This document shows positions 31,026 through 64,000 of a stretch of 64,000 nt of DNA, piece after piece. Numbering within the stretch: the stretch's first letter is position 1; each line of letters begins with the position of its first letter. Position numbers and translations under genes: made by a program. This stretch comes from Nautilus pompilius (Eukaryota; Mollusca; Cephalopoda; Nautilida; Nautilidae), in assembly GCA_018389105.1 (NCBI GenBank), contig JACATO010001085.1, positions 186,001 to 250,000 of the forward strand. The letters run 5' to 3'. Below the pieces are notes generated by a model, which was given only the letters and a program-made list of their open reading frames with translations, ran no database searches and had not been told where the DNA came from.

Positions 31026-32230
31026 GTAAGTGGTATGCTCTTGTTACCTCTCCTTGTTGCTGCATTATTGACTGACTTAGTTGTATTTATTTGGAGAGAA
31101 AGTGAATGGTTGATGATGATAAACATTGAAGTCATTTTACAGACTTAATTCATAACTAATGTAATTTTTTTAATAACCCAGCTATATCATTAATTTCAAA
31201 GTAATCTCATGAAATTTAAACACCACTTTTTGCAGTAGCTTTTCTAAGGAAAACAACCTACAGTGTGATGCTGATGAAGTTATATATTTTCTGACAGAAG
31301 ATTTGATAATGTCAACAAATACACAAAGCAGGATTTGCAAGTTTTTTTTTTTTAATGTTCATTTTTGGTTTTGTCCACCATAAACAGCTAAAAACAGCAA
31401 AAGAATTTTTTTTTTTTTACATGAAAAGTATGAATGATTGTTCTTTTTTGAAGCTCTACCACAGATGACAAAACCGACCAAGCAACTAGAGACTGCAACG
31501 AGCCTGGATGTGCCATAGTGTTATGGAACACCATTATTTAAAACTGTGGACATCAAATGTTGAGCTGTATTGTTGTGGATGTCCATTAACATTTGAATTT
31601 CAGTTCTGCCAGTTTTCATATGAATATTGCTATTGCTTATTAATTATATCATTGGCAACATTTCCACCACCACTACCATGCACAGATGGCATGCACACAC
31701 CAGATTTCTGTTCATCTAGAACATGGACAGCTACATCAGTTTAAATTATTTAGTTTAGGCATTATAAAACAAATTGAAAAAAACTTGGGCGACATATAAC
31801 GGAACCAGAGTCAGGAATGAAATGTAGTCTTCACAAACTTCTGTCTGTCTGTTTTATTGAAAGTCAATGTATCTGTTTGAAAATCTGCACAGCTTCTGCT
31901 CCACAACTCTTACATGCAAATGACAGACTTTTTTTAGAGTACAAAATATGATAACTATCAGCAGCCTTTGTTGTTGGTAAAACTTTCTGCCTGTCTGTAC
32001 AGTACAGTCTATTGGTAGCGGGCTGCATTGTTATCTGAATCCTGATTGTCTGCTAATCACTTAATTTTGTACGGATAGCACATCTTGTTGGATTGTTAAT
32101 TAATTGGTTGTTTTATGTTGGTGATTACACTGATCTTGCATTAAACTGCTTTTTTTCTGATGATAATCTTGCTTATGTTTAATTATTTTTTTTTGGTTTA
32201 TGTTTGTTTGTTTTTTTTTTTTTTTTGTAG
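31026..32230 (+). other. Intron before the SH2 exon
   Basis: Mostly AT-rich. At about 31456, after a T-rich tract ending tttgaag, there is a stretch open in the phase needed to follow the 46-nt exon for 29 codons before a TAA at 31540; it might be an alternative last exon, but the support is weak. The intron ends in a long T-run and ttgtag acceptor. Confidence 0.5.
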
Positions 32231-33790
32231 AATTGTCTCACCTGTTGCTCCTGTTTCTCCTGATATCCAGCCGGTGGATATTTCCTTGGATAAACTGCAG
32301 CAGGATCTTTTTCTGGAGCTCCAAGGAGATCCATCAGAGATGCACAGCAATGCTTGGTACCACGGTGTTATCTCCCGGCAGCGAGCAGAAAAACTGGTTA
32401 CCAACAATGGAGATTTTTTGGTTCGTGACAGCATGTCACACCCAGGTGATTTTGTCCTGACCTGTTGTTGGCATGGGGTACCATTACACTTTCTTCTAAA
32501 TTCTAGAGTCATCCAATGTGGAACCCAGCTACCAAGAGTGATCTATCATTTTGAAGATGATGACTACAGTTCCGTTCAAGATTTGATACATTTTTACATG
32601 AACAATGCCAAACCAATCACCCAGTCTTCTAATGCAGTGTTGAAGAACCCAATTTCCCGATCAATGCCTTTGAGTTTTTATGACACTAAGTATGGGGCTT
32701 TGTCTGTTTTGAATTCCAAGTGTGGAATGGGCTCATACACGCCAAATGTAAGCCCCAAAGCAAGTCCATTTAACACCCCTATTGGGAGCCCATCAGGAAG
32801 TCCAGGAAGCAAACGGCGTATTCCCAAACGTACAGGAAGTCAGCCATTGATTTCATTAGATGATAATGAAAATATTAATCCAAACTTGCTTGGACGCTGT
32901 GACAGCGTACCATCCATTGGTGGAGGAGTTACTCACAATAGCCACCAATCTCAGGAGAGTTCTGATCCTACTACGTACCGCCATCTGCGGTCTGGGAGTG
33001 AGCCTATACTGACACCAATCGCAGAAAACACAAGATTTTCCTACCTGACCCTCCCTAACAGCTGGATGACACCAGCAAGCTCAGAAAGCAGTCTGACTAA
33101 ACCCCCTCCTCCAAAACCAAGTCGAGTGCCCTCTGTGAAGTATAAGCAGAGACCAACTATCAAAATAAGGAACTTTGCGCTCTATGAAGATGATGACAGG
33201 GATTATAGTGAATATGACCAGGTGGTGTCATCACCAAGCTGGCTAAAGAAACAGCCAATGGACAAGCTTTATCCTAACTTTCCAACCAATAAAAACCTTC
33301 CTAACGGAACTGCCAATCAAGGCTTGTACGACAACAGTGCACTCTCAAACTCTGTAGATAAAAAATTAAAGAACAATAATAGGAATAAACCTGCTCAGGT
33401 GTCAGAAATTTCAATAATGGATGCAATTGATTCTCCAAAGGAAAAGGCAGTTGATGAGGAAAGCGTGAATTATATCTACGACAGTAATTATCTAAAAACT
33501 AGAAAAATCAGTGTTCCAAATCTGGACTCTCAGATGAGTTGCAATCTTGAGAGGTTTTACTCAGTTTTGCTCTGTGAAGGAAACAAACCTCTGGATGCTT
33601 CAGTGATTGTGACAGTTCGCAATATTATCTTTGAAAATGATGCCAGGAAGCTGGCACAACATTTAACCAAAGCTGAGGTAGATTTTTTAAAAGTAACAGA
33701 GGAAACAGATTTTGGGGTTGGAGTTCAGTCTGGTCTGGAACTGATCACATTACCTCAAGGAAAACAGTTTAGGCAGCAGATTATTGAAAG
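32231..33790 (+). CDS. BCAR3: NSP-family adaptor (BCAR3/SH2D3-like): SH2 domain, linker and start of CDC25-like domain
   Basis: This is the main exon of the gene: one base, 519 codons, two bases. Upstream residues in the open frame (a Phe-rich stretch before 32231) are intron and not protein. Counting from ATG 11175, the SH2 domain spans about residues 163-260, opening NAWYHGVISRQRAEKL. Its GDFLVRDS strand carries the phosphotyrosine-binding Arg (about residue 188). A low-complexity Ser/Pro linker follows with SGSEPILTP, a Pro-rich KPPPPKPSRVP patch and VNYIYDSNY, each with a counterpart in human BCAR3. The last 60 residues (DARKLAQHLTKAEVDFL, then GVGVQSGLELITLPQGKQFR) begin the CDC25/RasGEF-like domain, which in NSP proteins binds the C-terminal FAT-like domain of p130Cas rather than acting as an ordinary exchange factor. 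The exon ends GAAAG|gtaaga. The NSP-family assignment is very safe; the choice between BCAR3 and its vertebrate paralogues is not meaningful for an invertebrate. Confidence 0.95.
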
Positions 33791-34721
33791 GTAAGAGAAC
33801 CTTTGCAAGGTCTTTGACTCTTAATCTCGAGTTTCTGTCAAAAATGTAAAATTTAATCCTTAAAATTGAGGGAAGAAGAGGAAGAGTTGGGTATTTCTGT
33901 ACCTGGTAGTAAAATATAAATTAGGGTCAGTATATGAGGAAATTTGAATTTAATTGAACTATTTGAAATCACTGTTTTGGTAAGGACAAGTTTTAAATTG
34001 GAAATAAAGAAAGGAAAAAATGTTTTAAAAGTTTGATAGACTAGGGGGAAATAACTGTAACAGGCTGATGAGCTAGTGAATAAAAGATGTTAATACTTGT
34101 TAAAGATTGCCTTTCCTGTTGAAAGCCAATTCTGAGAATTAAACTTGTTCATTTGTTATTTTCAGTTTCTGTTTGTTTTTTTAAAAATTTATGTGAAAAG
34201 AAAAAGTGGTGAGTTTGTGTTTGTGAAGTTATTCACAGCTGGATCTGGCTATTATTATTATTTTTGCTTTATTCGTTTGAATTTAAGAATAAAGAGAACT
34301 TAGATTTTATCAAGAAAGCCTTTTTTAATATATGGATGCAACTTATAATTTGAAGTCGTCATTGATACAATGTTTAATTGCTTTGTGAATGTCAGTTACA
34401 TAGATGTTGGCCAAGAACTAAACAGAAAGTTGACTTCTAATTTTCATTCCTATTGCAAAAATAAAAGAGAGAAAGAGAAAAAGCAGCAAAGACTTCACCA
34501 GTGTTTGTGTCAGGGTCTGTAAGGAAGCTGTTACTTACAGGACAAACAATGATTTTTGCGTTGTTGATGAGTACAGATGCAGATACCAGGTATTAAACTT
34601 TTACTTTTGATGGAATATGCAAATGGTGACTGGGGGAAAGAAATGCATCTATGAAATAAATTCCTTGAAGAAAGTCACAATAAATGGTGGTATTTATTTT
34701 CGCTTCTTTCTTATTCACCAG
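33791..34721 (+). other. Intron
   Basis: Consensus donor gtaaga and acceptor ttcttattcaccag; AT-rich interior with no other feature seen. Confidence 0.85.
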
Positions 34722-34890: not shown

Positions 34891-35895
34891 GTTTGTATTT
34901 CTTGTGAGATCATTTATTGCCCACTTCTGTACTACATGGTTGCTGGAAAGTCTAGATAGAGATGTTTTTAGTTGAACACTTAGCACAGTAATAATGATCT
35001 GATTAGAATGTTTCCATACATCCACATTCAGAGTCTATTGTAAGATAGATGTTAGTAGGTACTGGATTTTAGATTTGTAAAATTTTAATCTGCCTTTAAT
35101 GTGTATAGTTTTCAAAACAATATAGTAATTTTTTGTTTTTCTTTAAATATTTAGCTAGTTAAAGAAGTTACCATCCACCCATTCAAAGTATTTGATAAGT
35201 ATATCTCTCAAACTCATGTTCAACCCTTTCTGGCATCTGATTAAAATTAAAAGGCTACCAGCTTTAATCTTACTGGACAAATGTTCATCTTTAATAACTA
35301 AAGTAAAAAAACCAAAAGATCATCTTTATGTCAGTATTTAAAGATGAATTATCACTGGATTATAATTGTTTATTTCTTACTCAACTCAGCATGCTTGTGA
35401 AGAAAGTTTATATGCAAAATGTAGACATGGCTGCAGTTGGGAGGGGCAGAAAGGAAGTCTCTTTGACTAATAATCCCCAGGGGACTTCCAGTCTGCTGTA
35501 TTAACAACGTGATTACTAAAGATATTTTCTCTAAACTAGTAAAATAAAGCATACCTGGAAACAATGTCTTACATAAACAAAAAATAACAACTGGTGCACA
35601 TTAGAGCTTCAACTACAACCCTGACTTTCCAACTAAAATTGGCAATAACAACAAAAAAATTAGCTTTTTGTGATTAGGACAACGTTCATCATTTAAAATG
35701 AAACCAACAACTTATTTTTATTAGGTAATTCCTGAAAATTAGTATGACTTTTTATCATTTTCAACTTTAGCTGAAATTTTGAAGTTTTTTGTTTTTTTTT
35801 TTAAAAAACTGATACAGTTGAAAATAAATCTACCAATTTTTGTTGAAAATATTTAAAAGTTACTGCTAATGAGATTTAATGTCTTGTTATTTCAG
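34891..35895 (+). other. Intron
   Basis: AT-rich, no feature seen; ends with a weakly pyrimidine-rich acceptor gtcttgttatttcag. Confidence 0.85.
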
Positions 35896-36399
35896 ATTAA
35901 GCGACTGAAAGATACTTGGCTCATTCTACGACAAAACCATACCAGCAGTGCCATGTTGTATGATACAATACTCCGCCTGGCATACCGGACTCTCAATGAT
36001 GGTACCAAAACTCTTCCATTACAGAACATTAGCATACCCAACATTTCTCCAATAGTCCATGTGCTTGAACGAACTTCTGACTCTTTGGCAGACCTGTTGC
36101 CATGGGAACAAAATAGTGCCGACTCAGGTCTGACCAGTCTCCTCATACACCTGGATACAGCCAGAGTTATTGCATCACAATTTAACCTCTACCAGATTTG
36201 CGGTCAGGCTGTAGTGAACAACATGAAAGTAGACCCAGAGATTAAGGAACTGTTTCAGACAGAGTTTCATCTGAAGCTCTTGTGGGGCTCCAAGGGGGCA
36301 GGAGTGATAAGATCTGATCGATATGGCATATTTGAGCGAATCTTGACTGCCCTATCAAACCAGAAGGAGCCTCCTGGTGACAATGGTACAGCGGTTTGA
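35896..36399 (+). CDS. BCAR3: NSP-family adaptor, terminal coding exon (Cas-binding CDC25-like domain C-terminus)
   Basis: Starts in phase 0 at IKRLKDTWLILRQNH and ends with TGA at 36397-36399 after NGTAV, giving 167 codons. Conserved landmarks are the LPLQNISIPNISPIVHVLER segment, the acidic/Trp loop LPWEQN, LDTARVIASQFNLYQ, and the family's most conserved C-terminal block TEFHLKLLWGSKGAG then RYGIFERILTALSNQKEPP. This block contributes to the surface that holds the Cas FAT-like domain in vertebrate BCAR3 and SH2D3C. The stop lies about 11 residues after the KEPP motif, close to the human C-terminus, so the gene is complete at its 3' end. Confidence 0.97.
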   Translation: MKRLKDTWLILRQNHTSSAMLYDTILRLAYRTLNDGTKTLPLQNISIPNISPIVHVLERTSDSLADLLPWEQNSADSGLTSLLIHLDTARVIASQFNLYQICGQAVVNNMKVDPEIKELFQTEFHLKLLWGSKGAGVIRSDRYGIFERILTALSNQKEPPGDNGTAV

Positions 36400-49891: not shown

Positions 49892-49937
49892 ATGGGCTTC
49901 GAGACGTGCGGCCCCAATGAAGTGATGGTGGTGTCAG
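49892..49937 (+). CDS. FLOT1: Flotillin-1, coding exon 1
   Basis: ATG at 49892 opens MGFETCGPNEVMVVS and stops after one base of Gly at GTGTCAG|gtaact. The TCGPNE..VVSG start is diagnostic of flotillins, scaffold proteins on the cytosolic face of the plasma membrane and endosomes that assemble flotillin-1/flotillin-2 oligomers in cholesterol-rich domains. Residue 2 is Gly, as in N-myristoylated flotillin-2, but the following Phe is unfavourable for N-myristoyltransferase. Gene model: this exon, 51370-51445, one of two alternatives (53442-53532 or 56058-56148), 58983-59126, 59792-59911. The 159 residues seen are roughly 37% of the usual 425-430; the coiled-coil C-terminal part lies beyond the window. 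Confidence 0.95.
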
Positions 49938-51369: not shown

Positions 51370-51445
51370 GATGCTGTCATTCACATTCCTTGTTTGTGCG
51401 AGGCGGTCGTGTCTTTGTATGGCCAGGAATGCAGAAACTTCAGAA
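51370..51445 (+). CDS. FLOT1: Flotillin-1, coding exon 2
   Basis: Two bases complete Gly16, then 24 codons CCHSHSLFVRGGRVFVW followed by PGMQKLQ, then AA of Lys41 at CAGAA|gtaagt. GGRVFVWPG matches the GGRVFVLPC region of human flotillin-1, the beginning of the SPFH/PHB domain. The human palmitoylated Cys34 is replaced by Gly here (residue 35), while a Cys-Cys pair sits at 17-18, as in the SGGCC start of flotillin-2. If palmitoylation anchors this protein, Cys17/18 (or Cys6) are the likelier sites; that is inference. Confidence 0.93.
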
Positions 51446-53441: not shown

Positions 53442-53532
53442 AATGACTCTCAACACACTGACATTGACCATTGAGAGTTCTCATGTGTACACTAAACATG
53501 GAGTAGCAATATCTGTTACTGGAATCGCTCAA
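53442..53532 (+). CDS. FLOT1: Flotillin-1, alternative exon 3A (mutually exclusive)
   Basis: After acceptor actttttaaag, one A completes Lys41 and 30 codons follow: [15 protein letters not shown], then [15 protein letters not shown], ending CAA|gtaagt in phase 0. The exon belongs to the SPFH/PHB domain and joins perfectly to VKIQGSNEE in the exon at 58983. A second exon with the same length, phases and fold position lies 2.5 kb downstream. 3A is the more divergent of the two from flotillin-1 of other animals as I remember them ([22 protein letters not shown]) and carries extra basic residues (His55, Lys59, His60). Its acceptor has a purine-interrupted tract and looks weaker than that of 3B, which suggests regulated inclusion. 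Confidence 0.9.
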
Positions 53533-56057
53533 GTAAGTGCAGTAGTACATCAAACTTTGTTTGTTCATTTATTTTTCTGCATGTAATGCTTGCCTTTATA
53601 TCCTTTCTGTCATCTGTTTTTGTGGTAGTTTGGGGAAAAAATAGACAAAAACAGATGAAAGGTGGGTGGAATAGTGAGATCTGGGTGGTGTATGTATATT
53701 AGTTACACACCTTGGAAATTCTTTTCTTCATGGCTTTTAGTGAGAGAGAGAAGATTCTTTACTTATAGTAAAGATTTCTAATGCAGACATTTTATGTTCA
53801 GGCTTTTTTTTTTTTTTTTTAGAATAGAATGTGAATAATAAAGTCTAAATGCATAAGATGAATTATGAAAGGCTGTTAGAAGATACCAGATTTTCGATTC
53901 AGAAGTTTGGATATTGTTGCCTCGCTCTAATTAAACATCTTGGCATAAGTTAAGCACCATCAGATCTTCTTTCCTTAATGAACCAAAAGTAAAATGTTGC
54001 AGCAGGAATAAGCTGTGCGTTGCTCAATTTCATACTTCTGGTATATTCCGATTGCATATGTGTGTTGGATTAGCTGTAGAAAAATGAATTATAATATCTT
54101 GATTGTGTGGGTGCTAAGCAAAATAATGTCAGGTTGTTGCATGACTAAAACTGCAACTATGGCACAGAGGTCCTTTTACAGAACAAGAAATGACAGACAA
54201 TTGGAATGAAAAATCTTGGAGGGGAATCTTTGTACAACACTCAGTTTTCTTGTTGTTAAACATAAATGGCTCCAAGAGAAAATAATTCAAGAATTGATTC
54301 ACAACCCTTCACCAATGCCACTGACTTGAGGAACTGTCCAACAAATAGAATGGCCTTCATTACCATGCCCATTGCCCTGGGAAATGTCCAGATTGACATA
54401 AGCAAGTCAGATGTAATTGGACTGATGCTCATTTTTTGAGTTTGTTGGGGAGGATGCACTGGTTCAGCGAAAGTGAATGTTGATGGTTACACGAGAGTTT
54501 GGTAGTACGGGGGGAGGGGAGTTTAAAACTAAGGAAACATTGCTGTTACTGTTGAGGCTGGTCTGTCATACAGATGTGTATCCTAAGATTGAATCTTGTT
54601 GACAGGTACCATGAAAACGTTTTTGAGCCTATCATTGTTTCTCATTTTAACAATCATCCACTTGCTACTAGACAGCCATGTGGCTGCAGTGGTGTGGTAT
54701 TGTGATCGAGTCTGCTGTTTGGTTGGCTATGAGTCTGATTTGATTTGAATCTGAGTGATCAGATCAGGACCAGTGCAATGGCAAGAAATTTTCCTATTCA
54801 GAACTGGCTCCGCTTTTCTGCAATGAGTGAGGCTACCGTGGACTTGCATTTGGCTACTGTGGTAGTTCATCTCCCTTAACAGAACCGAAGTTTATTGTAT
54901 TATGATGTCACTTGCTCAACATGTGATCGGGATGGCAGAAAGATGACAGCATGAAGAGGTGTAAGAAAATTATCCATACAAGGGGAGGTTAAGTGACATT
55001 TTCATTGTAAAATACTGATATATCTAACCATGTGCTTTGTAATACTGCAAAAATAAATAATTTAATTTTCTGTTTATTTCCATAACATCATTACCTTGTT
55101 GCATTAGGTTAATTTTAAATGCATTTCTCACTAAGAAGTATGCAACAGTTCTACAGGAAATGTGTGTATAAAAAATTTGGCTTTAACTGATGTCAAGGGG
55201 TATATATTTAAAAAAGAAAAAGAAAAATGATTTTTGATTTGATGTGATGATGGGTGATGAGCCTACCTTGCATGGCTTCTCTATTACTACCAGCCAGCTG
55301 TGTGGGGTTTCTTCTACATCTAACAATGAAGAGTTCTAATATGGCATTTTTGAGGTTCTGCGGTAACTCAACTAGCCTGCCTCTTTGCCACTGCCTGAGA
55401 GCTGGACCCAGATAACTTGCTTGGTCACAAGGTCTGACATCCCGCACCTTCGCTCTCACCCATGAGCTGTCTGTCCCTATACCTCGACAGTCAAGATGGA
55501 GTTTGACAACAAGAAGAATATGATGGTGAAGATTTGTTAGTCTGGATAATTGGTTATGGTTGAATGTTATTAAATTTGCATTGTATTTTAATTTAAGAAT
55601 GTAATCAGTTTGTTTATCGTTAGAACAGGACTCTAAAGAATTTGAAAGGAAATAGAAACATAGAACTGACTTTTTTAAAATTAGTAATGTATTGGTGTTA
55701 TAAAGCCTGAGATGGTGAGTGAAAGGCTATGGTCTGTTCTGTTTGCACTTATTATTTTATCAGTTGGTGGCAAAATCGTCATTAGGAAAGAAAGGAATGA
55801 CAAAACAACATCTAAAGAATGAGAAAAGATGGCTATAACATTTGATTCTCAAACTTTAAAACTATGAATTAACCAAAAACCTGAAAGCTTCACACTTTCA
55901 GGATATTATAATTGACTCTTTTGGAAATAGAAAACATTTTCTTCTAAATGGAAATGTCAGGGTGAAATAACCATGAAGAGAGGATCCTCACTTGAATACA
56001 TTTTTTTTTTGCATGACTTAATTTGTTGATGTAGTTTGAATGTGGCTTGCTTTTCAG
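53533..56057 (+). other. Intron between the alternative flotillin exons
   Basis: 2525 bp, far longer than needed to sterically block splicing of 3A to 3B. It holds a SINE copy (55225-55500) and a weak SINE-like patch near 54660-54790; otherwise AT-rich with no further exon copy found. Confidence 0.75.
55225..55500 (+). repeat. tRNA-SINE body copy
   Basis: Starts abruptly with 'gatgagcctaccttgcatgg', then 'cttctctattactaccagcc', 'agctgtgtggggtttcttct' and 'acatctaacaatgaagagtt', the family body in order. The tRNA-like head is missing, so it is 5'-truncated. It lies between the two mutually exclusive exons. Confidence 0.65.
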
Positions 56058-56148
56058 ATTATCTTTAAACACTATGACTTTGACAATAGAAAGCCCACAG
56101 GTATATACGCAGATGGGTGTTGCTATATCAGTAACTGGCATTGCACAG
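56058..56148 (+). CDS. FLOT1: Flotillin-1, alternative exon 3B (mutually exclusive)
   Basis: After a strong acceptor (ggcttgcttttcag), one A completes Lys41 and 30 codons follow: [15 protein letters not shown], then [15 protein letters not shown], ending CACAG|gtaaga in phase 0. Length, phases and position in the SPFH/PHB domain are identical to 3A; 23 of 30 residues match. The differences are M/L42, T/S43, L/M47, S/P54, H/Q55, K/Q59 and H/M60. 3B resembles the ordinary flotillin-1 sequence more closely (SLNTMTL, ESP.VYT) and has the better splice sites, so it is probably the default form. The minus-strand open frame overlapping it (55944-56141) is a shadow. Confidence 0.93.
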
Positions 56149-58982: not shown

Positions 58983-59126
58983 GTTAAAATTCAAGGGTCC
59001 AATGAAGAGATGCTGTGTACCGCTTGTGAGCTTTTTCTCGGGAAAAGCGAGCGTGAAATCCAGAAAGTTGCTCAAGAAACACTGGAGGGCCATCAGCGCG
59101 CTATTATGGGGAACATGACAGTGGAG
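58983..59126 (+). CDS. FLOT1: Flotillin-1, coding exon 4
   Basis: Exactly 48 codons, phase 0 to 0, between tttgaaag and GTGGAG|gtatgt. The peptide runs [48 protein letters not shown]. The VKIQG...ML..AC..FLGK and [15 protein letters not shown] blocks are among the most conserved stretches of flotillin-1 and leave no doubt about identity. Residues 72-119 of the model. The upstream context aaaaatttgaaag is a weak pyrimidine tract. Confidence 0.97.
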
Positions 59127-59791: not shown

Positions 59792-59911
59792 GAGATTTAC
59801 AAGGACAGAAAGAAGTTCTCCAAAGCTGTTTTTGAAGTGGCTTCCTCTGATTTGGTCAATATGGGGATCTGTGTGGTCAGTTACACATTGAAAGACATTC
59901 GAGATGATGAG
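59792..59911 (+). CDS. FLOT1: Flotillin-1, coding exon 5
   Basis: Exactly 40 codons, phase 0 to 0, from [20 protein letters not shown] to [20 protein letters not shown], then |gtaaaa. This is the end of the SPFH/PHB domain; [31 protein letters not shown] is nearly invariant in animal flotillin-1. Residues 120-159. The next expected residues (a YL.SLG..RTAQV block at the start of the coiled coil) are not found before 64000, so at least 4 kb of intron follows. Confidence 0.97.
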
Positions 59912-62587: not shown

Positions 62588-64000
62588 TTATTTTGGTGAG
62601 GTAGGCTGACCGCCTTCTAAAGCCTTCCAGCTACCCCAAGCGATCCGCTGAGCGGTGAAAACCAGAAAGTTCGAAAGACAGTCCTTCTTAGTTCTGTTAT
62701 TAAAGCCAAAGATGCGCCAGAACGACGTAAGTTTGTTCTGGGGACTTTTAATTTTAAAAATCAAGTCTCGGACTGGGCACCATAGTTCTATGTTCAGTGG
62801 ACACGAGAACAAGCAATGGATTGCCGTTTCATCCTCCTCGTGACAAGCGAGGCATTTGGGAGAATTAATTAATTTCCATTTATGTTTGTTTTCCCTTGTG
62901 GGGAGAACATTCCTTAGTAATTTCCAGTGTATGTCAGATGTATATCCGTCCACGAGACGATTAATGGAGCTAGTCCAAATCCTGCCCCATGGAAGTGTTC
63001 CTGAATTGAGGGTACCTTCCCACCTCTTCCTGTAATTCGGTTCCCCGATGGGTCGTGACGACAGGAAGAGGTATATGTCTCGCTGGGATAATTTGTCTAG
63101 TTCTATTTTAGTATCTCCTAGGCTTACAATGTTATCTGTTCCTATAGAGATATTACTAGTGATCCATTGCTGGAGTGCGGTTATGTGGTAGTCAGTAAGT
63201 TTTTCTGTGCTCTATATAGTTTTAGTTTGTTAGTGAGAACACTGACCCCGTCAAGGGTGTCGAATGCTTTCCCTAAACGGGAAATGATGAGTTTTTGCCA
63301 TCTTGGCCTATCGTTTACGTTTTTTATGATATCTATTATATTTAGTATTTGTTGAGCACCTATTTTGCTCTCTAGATTTATTAGATTTAGTCCGCCTTGG
63401 CTCCGAGGGGGTCTAATTATTTGTTTATTTGCCAGGTGTTTGTGCCCTTGCCACAGAAACCGAGTTAACTCAGCATCTATGGCATTGTGCACCCAGCCTG
63501 GCATTCCTATGATTTTAGATTTATAATAGATTTTGGGGGCAAGGTATGCATTGACTAATTCGGTTTTAGTAAAGAAGGAAAGGTTCAGCGATGACCATGT
63601 GGTTAGTAAAGCATTGACTTTATTAATTACAGGTTGCCAGTTGTCATGCAGCGTATTAGTATTATATTTTACTGGGAAGTAGATTCCCAGTAACTTAATT
63701 TTGTCTTCCACCCAGTTGATGTTGTGTTGACGCAGGGGTTTGTTATTGCCCCCTAGCCATGCTGCGGTGGTCTTCCTTTTGTTTATCTTTGTCCCAGAGG
63801 CCCTTTCATAGACCTTTAGGACTTTAAATGCTGCGTCCAAGCTGGCCGCATCCTTTAACAGGAGGGTGGTGTCATCAGCGTATTGCTGGATTTTGACACC
63901 ATTTATCCCCCTGATTGTTTGGTCTTTTCGGATCATGGCGGCCAGCGGTTCTGCAGTCAGAACATATAGCATGGCGCTTAGGGGACACCCCTGCCTGATG
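62588..64000 (-). pseudogene. L1/Tx1-like LINE ORF2, 3' part (RT to C-terminus), partial and frameshifted
   Basis: The frame enters from beyond 64000 and reads IRQGCPLSAMLYVLTAEPLA, the RT motif preceding the catalytic site, then QQYADDTTLLLKD (YADD, with the catalytic Asp pair). It continues with YERASGTKINKRKT and AWLGG, then GIYF; this order is typical of the L1/Tx1 group of non-LTR retrotransposons. The frame ends at a stop at 63181-63183 after KNLLTTT. Just before it, at an A5 run near 63200, the next frame takes over (LTDYHITALQQWITS) and stays open through DIYLFLSSRPIGEPNYRKRW, RIWTSSINRLVDGYTSDIHW and KCLACHEEDETAIHCLFSCP to a stop at 62588. That last piece holds a CLAC..E.ET..H..F.C zinc-knuckle-like motif. 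A single indel at the A-run therefore separates two otherwise intact halves, so the copy is young. It lies antisense in flotillin-1 intron 5. Confidence 0.88.

Follow-up and report, generated by a model that had tools for sequence, protein, structure and literature searches.

Two old copies of exon 3 as probable mutually exclusive alternatives in the flotillin-1 gene of Nautilus pompilius

The membrane-scaffold protein flotillin-1 is commonly regarded as having a single, unvarying form. In Nautilus pompilius the flotillin-1 gene (FLOT1) contains two versions of exon 3, 3A and 3B, which raises the question of whether one of the two is chosen for each transcript, how such a choice could be made and what it would change in the protein. 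The two copies are very probably genuine mutually exclusive exons of molluscan FLOT1 that arose by tandem duplication, probably before the living molluscs diverged, and are both under selection; each would be joined between exons 2 and 4 and would supply residues 42-71 of the SPFH1 domain. The anatomy of the exons is read directly from the DNA and the swaps are annotated in relatives, from which we infer use in Nautilus pompilius. The window, i.e., the whole stretch of DNA that was analysed (64,000 nucleotides), includes the following features.

49892-49937, plus strand: FLOT1 exon 1, coding part from the ATG, from virtual splicing
51370-51445, plus strand: FLOT1 exon 2, whose last bases AA start the shared Lys41 codon
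53442-53532, plus strand: exon 3A, 91 nt, residues 42-71, type A (M42, K59, H60)
53578-53583, plus strand: TGCATG (Rbfox-type), starting 46 nt past the last base of 3A; candidate enhancer of 3A, putative function
56010-56015, plus strand: TGCATG (Rbfox-type), ending 43 nt ahead of the first base of 3B; candidate silencer of 3B, putative function
56058-56148, plus strand: exon 3B, 91 nt, residues 42-71, type B (L42, Q59, M60)
58983-59126, plus strand: FLOT1 exon 4, containing the stops for double inclusion (TAA at 58985) and double skipping (TGA at 59116)
59792-59911, plus strand: FLOT1 exon 5, ending with residue 159 and lying directly 5' of a second stretch that is swapped in relatives

The window covers exons 1-5 only, and the remainder of the gene, including exon 6, lies past position 64000; a tblastn search with 65 exon-6 strings of relatives found no credible exon 6 in the window (best E 0.014). 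The encoded N-terminal part of the protein scores 236.8 bits against the FLOT1 chain and 136.7 against FLOT2, identifying the gene as FLOT1, and its residues 3-159 align without gaps to residues 2-158 of human FLOT1 (PDB 9bq2, 9l3g; PMC11260169; E 8.3e-70). A FLOT1 tree of 129 residues places it in a group with gastropod, bivalve and cephalopod sequences (support 97/94). The Pfam Band_7/SPFH domain (PF01145) is matched with either 3A or 3B (65.4 and 68.0 bits, respectively; cut-off 23.6). Elsewhere in the window, a minus-strand open reading frame at 62588-63211 carries a reverse-transcriptase zinc-binding domain (PF13966, E 2.1e-11) and is likely a LINE-type element in the intron after exon 5. 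A long plus-strand frame at 32145-33794 contains an SH2 domain (PF00017, E 3.9e-15) and may resemble the BCAR3/SH2D3 adaptors, and the frame at 35857-36399 has no Pfam match.

An earlier note on this DNA had claimed that the two exons agree in length, phase and splice sites, and re-derivation gave the same anatomy: both measure 91 nt, complete Lys41 (AA in exon 2, A in exon 3), exit in phase 0 and encode 30 residues, 23 of which are identical. Exon 3A is preceded by AAAG and followed by GTAAGT, exon 3B by TCAG and GTAAGA, respectively. Each donor matches 8 of the 9 consensus positions, and both are U2-like, so incompatibility between U2 and U12 sites was rejected as the cause of exclusion. Steric exclusion was likewise rejected, since the intron between the copies spans 2525 nt and is far from very short. 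Mutually exclusive exons are recognized by homology, similar length, same phase and intact splice sites (the accessible part of PMC3228551), and all four are found in 3A and 3B.

Virtual splicing of exons 1-2-3A-4-5 and of exons 1-2-3B-4-5 yields an open frame of 159 residues in each case. The note's further claim that any other combination breaks the frame is borne out. When both copies are included, translation runs on through the frameshifted 3B before it meets TAA at 58985-58987, the first full codon inside exon 4; when both are skipped, it ends at TGA 59116-59118, 8 nt from the end of that exon. Exclusivity at the protein level thus follows from the exon length of 91 nt, because inclusion of both or neither shifts the frame into an early stop, and the resulting transcripts would be expected to trigger nonsense-mediated decay. 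The frame would in this way act as a filter, by which a single copy leads to protein, and both or neither to an early stop and decay. That the exons are "strictly" exclusive, as the note put it, therefore holds for the reading frame; for regulation in Nautilus pompilius the word is better replaced by "presumably."

The early stops in exon 4 would also suit a dosage control, in which regulated joint inclusion or skipping lowers FLOT1 by decay; the pair would then act mainly as a poison device, with no functional difference between the two proteins. This explanation is very unlikely, given that each copy is productive alone, that both are selected, and that the type-specific residues 42, 59 and 60 are common to the copies of other species.

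The divergence between the copies bears on their age and use. They differ at 32 of 91 bases, with 7/30 differences at first, 1/30 at second and 24/30 at third codon positions, and the concentration of 24 of the 32 at third positions departs from an even spread (binomial P 1.7e-6). The Nei-Gojobori estimates are pS 0.96, which is saturated, and pN 0.15. Since the silent sites are saturated while the protein is kept, 3A and 3B appear to be two old copies, both under selection. When the window was searched with the cassettes of relatives, the two copies were matched at E 4.3e-14 and 2.6e-15, and the best remaining exon-3 hit in the 64 kb is not credible (E 0.010; tblastn, 87 exon-3 strings); this gap indicates that exactly two copies of exon 3 are detectable in the window. 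The same type of search with 82 exon-2 strings of relatives found no alternative exon 2 in the window, and a repeat search of introns 2 to 4 returned only short, mostly A/T-rich repeats, with no long repeat common to the flanking introns.

These data speak against two other accounts of the pair. An assembly duplicate, or a very recent duplication without function, has only the similarity of the copies in its favor and is close to impossible, in view of the saturated silent sites, the lack of a long repeat common to the flanking introns and the fact that each copy is nearer to copies of other species than to its neighbor. A leftover copy, i.e., one exon that is rarely or never used in Nautilus pompilius, could find a parallel in oysters, which have one cassette only among the listed entries; it is nonetheless highly improbable, for both exons retain intact frames, AG/GT sites and donors with 8/9 consensus, show few residue changes although their silent sites are saturated, and have close counterparts in other species. 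Assembly duplicate and dead copy were accordingly rejected on divergence, the repeat search and cross-species distances.

The choice of exon 3 can be followed in the proteins of relatives. A search with the window peptide produced 1809 matches, of which 120 were listed, and two further searches, based on the cassette region, found 85 and 54. The pooled listed set comprises 182 proteins, 179 with the full cassette, and 89 distinct cassettes; the isoforms in it are automated annotations, and database clustering may hide others. Mollusc and brachiopod FLOT1 isoforms named X1, X2 and so on (Haliotis, Mytilus, Sinanodonta, Lingula) swap this same 30-residue cassette and are otherwise equal, bar other swapped stretches. 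Among 15 named species with at least two listed entries, 7 have entries that swap residues 42-71. Three entries of Sinanodonta woodiana under one locus tag (P0007, P0008, P0013) carry three cassettes that differ at 9-10 of 30 residues inside and at 0 of 397 outside, and a fourth entry (P0006) is without residues 160-191. The listed cassettes number five in Haliotis rufescens, three each in H. cracherodii, Mytilus californianus and Lingula, and two each in M. trossulus and Bradybaena. In the swapping species other than Sinanodonta one further stretch is swapped (160-191; in Lingula 17-41), and there are no other differences. Compared with these relatives, the window has two detectable copies, whereas Haliotis rufescens has as many as five cassettes; in contrast to annotated isoforms, the window also lets the exons be read in genomic DNA together with their splice sites and the motifs of the introns.

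No exon-3 swap occurs among the listed entries of the other 8 species (Littorina, Biomphalaria, Saccostrea echinata, Crassostrea virginica, C. angulata, Ostrea, Babylonia, Centruroides); all six listed entries of Crassostrea virginica have a single cassette. The listed isoforms of oysters (P0041-P0057) show one exon-3 cassette, together with optional insertions, at most about 16 residues long, exactly at the hinge border between 159 and 160. The two entries of Babylonia areolata (P0012 and P0025) differ throughout, as if from two genes.

Three jgi contigs (P0108, P0109, P0112) differ at 11/30 residues in the exon-3 stretch and at 0-2/420 elsewhere. P0108 and P0112 (1849 and 1848 bases, each with an unbroken frame of 450 residues) differ at 11/30 inside the cassette and at 0/420 elsewhere, and by their length of about 1.85 kb and uninterrupted frames they look like transcripts, which makes them the nearest thing to RNA evidence for an exon-3 swap. 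All three contigs are putatively copepod-like and possibly represent a switch at the same site in another phylum, with an independent origin.

As far as annotated sequences tell, the exon-3 choice is no two-way oddity of one species, and relatives have up to five alternatives as well as further swapped stretches. The proposal of the earlier note that the exons offer a choice between SPFH variants gains from these swaps between entries of the same species, and from 3A being nearer to foreign A cassettes than to 3B. By our own labels, type A has M42 and K or R at 59, as in 3A, and type B is 3B-like, with L42 and mostly Q59. M42 together with a basic residue 59 is present in 15 of the 179 listed proteins, from 12 species that are all molluscs: Plakobranchus, two Haliotis, Bradybaena, Lymnaea, Nucella, Lottia, Sinanodonta, Mercenaria, Dreissena, Mya and the chiton Liolophura. 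Over 30 residues, 3A differs from Haliotis A at 3, from Lottia at 4, from Nucella at 5 and from its own 3B at 7; 3B differs from Plakobranchus B at 2, from Bradybaena B and Haliotis B1 at 3, and from Haliotis A and Bradybaena A at 4. Mean differences are 5.55 for A-A between species (66 pairs), 4.63 for B-B (30) and 7.12 for A-B in the same species (8).

In a tree of 33 cassettes over 30 columns, from which Lymnaea A was excluded because its sequence equals that of Bradybaena A, the 11 A rows and Octopus form one group (support 81/83; the 11 A rows without Octopus, 64/65), and the window's 3A pairs with Haliotis A (97/87). The A-like group includes gastropods and bivalves as well as a chiton and an octopus, so the pair is probably older than the living molluscs; an exon duplication before these diverged is probable from the sequences and, with only thirty columns in the tree, not proven. 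Two gene models contain both types in tandem. Plakobranchus P0002 reads through A, 13 residues that look intron-derived and then B, and Nucella P0062 through A and then 12 residues resembling the end of B. These fused models look like annotation artefacts, and their exon order, A before B, is that of the window. The Plakobranchus cassette in the pooled alignment is a mixture made by the aligner, and segments from the gene model were used for the distances and the tree.

Exon 3 is not the only stretch of FLOT1 that is swapped. Residues ~160-191 occur in two forms (KRT[AE]EV and [AS]RTAQV) in Haliotis, Mytilus, Bradybaena, Littorina and Biomphalaria (P0003-P0005, P0010, P0011, P0014, P0015, P0020, P0021, P0027-P0037, P0060-P0077), and 7 of the 10 possible combinations of exon 3 with this stretch are found among the listed entries of Haliotis rufescens. 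The six listed isoforms of the brachiopod Lingula anatina (P0085, P0095, P0101, P0105, P0137, P0140) combine two forms of the exon-2 stretch (17-41) with three forms of exon 3. In vertebrates the tyrosine of the hinge is phosphorylated by Fyn. The 160-191 stretch starts at the exon 5 border of the window's gene, at the hinge between SPFH and coiled coil, and contains the equivalent of human Tyr160. Human Tyr160 is placed at the hinge in the accessible part of PMC11260169, where earlier work is cited for a link to Fyn and endocytosis.

How one copy might be selected is suggested by the introns. Rbfox proteins follow a positional rule, by which a site downstream of an exon favors its inclusion and an upstream site favors skipping, and in C. 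elegans the exclusive exons 5A and 5B of egl-15 have UGCAUG in the intron between them. The window contains 25 TGCATG on the plus strand. From that frequency, the chance of finding the motif in both of the 60-nt flanks concerned, after 3A and before 3B, is P 4.6e-4, and in any two of four flanks 0.0027; the motif was selected after being seen, and these odds are post hoc. Only three hexamers are common to the two flanks, the other two being T-rich. Intron 3 has four TGCATG (0.99 expected, P 0.018, post hoc), two of them further sites deep inside it, introns 1-2 have none, and introns 4 and 5 have one each.

The direction of Rbfox effects depends on binding upstream or downstream of the exon (the portion of PMC8742874 available). 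In FGFR2, Fox2 acts via UGCAUG ahead of exon 9 to repress exon 9 and promote exon 8 (PMC2880598, in the text available), which fits the positional rule and, if applied here, would give 3A at high Rbfox and 3B at low Rbfox. Exons 8 and 9 likewise form an exclusive pair with UGCAUG in the intron between them, ahead of the downstream exon (same portion of PMC2880598). FGFR2 differs in being an unrelated gene, and here a second UGCAUG stands directly after the upstream exon and the regulator is a candidate only. Rbfox bound to UGCAUG after 3A and before 3B would include 3A and silence 3B where it is abundant, and 3B would be used elsewhere; that an Rbfox protein makes the choice through the flanking UGCAUG is quite possible, somewhat short of likely. 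A single pair of UGCAUG does not by itself account for the selection of one cassette out of three to five.

Competing RNA pairing between docking and selector sites, as in Dscam, could take the place of a protein such as Rbfox. Such pairing is known for other exclusive exons and would also accommodate sets of alternatives larger than a pair, such as those of Haliotis. The best ungapped intronic complementarity in the single genome at hand scores 37 against shuffle bests of 32-42 (n=20), and because conserved pairing is not visible in one genome this is weak evidence against the mechanism, which we consider unlikely. In Dscam, more than one exclusive cluster per gene gives combinations. The FLOT1 of relatives resembles Dscam-type clusters in this respect, and differs in having far fewer alternatives; in the window, intronic pairing is not above that of shuffles.

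The consequence for the protein was considered on a structure model of the Haliotis A form P0005 (28-sequence alignment, mean pLDDT 70.9, pTM 0.38), in which pLDDT reaches 82-84 over residues 51-70. In this model the cassette includes the last part of strand 37-43, the whole of strand 47-57 and of loop 58-62, and the greater part of strand 63-74. Within the loop, residues 59-60 are K-H in 3A and Q-M in 3B; among type A cassettes they are a basic and a mostly polar residue, and among type B mostly Q followed by L or M. Human and coral FLOT1 have R-H, which is 3A-like. SPFH1 dips into one membrane leaflet (PMC11260169, in its accessible part), and from strand alternation in the model the hairpin loop 58-62 may face the membrane. 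The swap alters a β-hairpin loop (at 59-60) in a membrane-dipping domain and may so tune contacts of the flotillin cage with membrane or partners, a role that we put forward tentatively.

Published accounts of flotillin splicing, in the parts available, include skipping, mis-splicing and a retained intron for FLOT1 and isoform switching for FLOT2, with no exclusive pair (PMC10940349, PMC7790816, PMC9205547, PMC12809084), and the available part of PMC9803972 does not mention flotillin. Exclusive FLOT1 exons are not described in the literature searched on flotillin splicing and on exclusive exons of molluscs, as far as its text was accessible (few subscription papers). Mutually exclusive exons are a well-known kind of arrangement, of which the FLOT1 pair is probably an ancient case, apparently undescribed in that literature.

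By its retention in gastropods and bivalves, in a chiton and perhaps in an octopus, the switch shows which 30 residues evolution varies. Molluscs may have two old switches, one in the SPFH1 hairpin (exon 3, via Rbfox) and one in the hinge (160-191), which together would make FLOT1 combinatorial and let individual cells adjust how the 44-subunit flotillin cage contacts and bends the membrane; this wider picture is conceivable and, taken as a whole, doubtful. The hairpin loop and the hinge are directly testable spots in the solved flotillin cage, and 3A and 3B provide natural paired variants for asking what role SPFH1 plays at the membrane.
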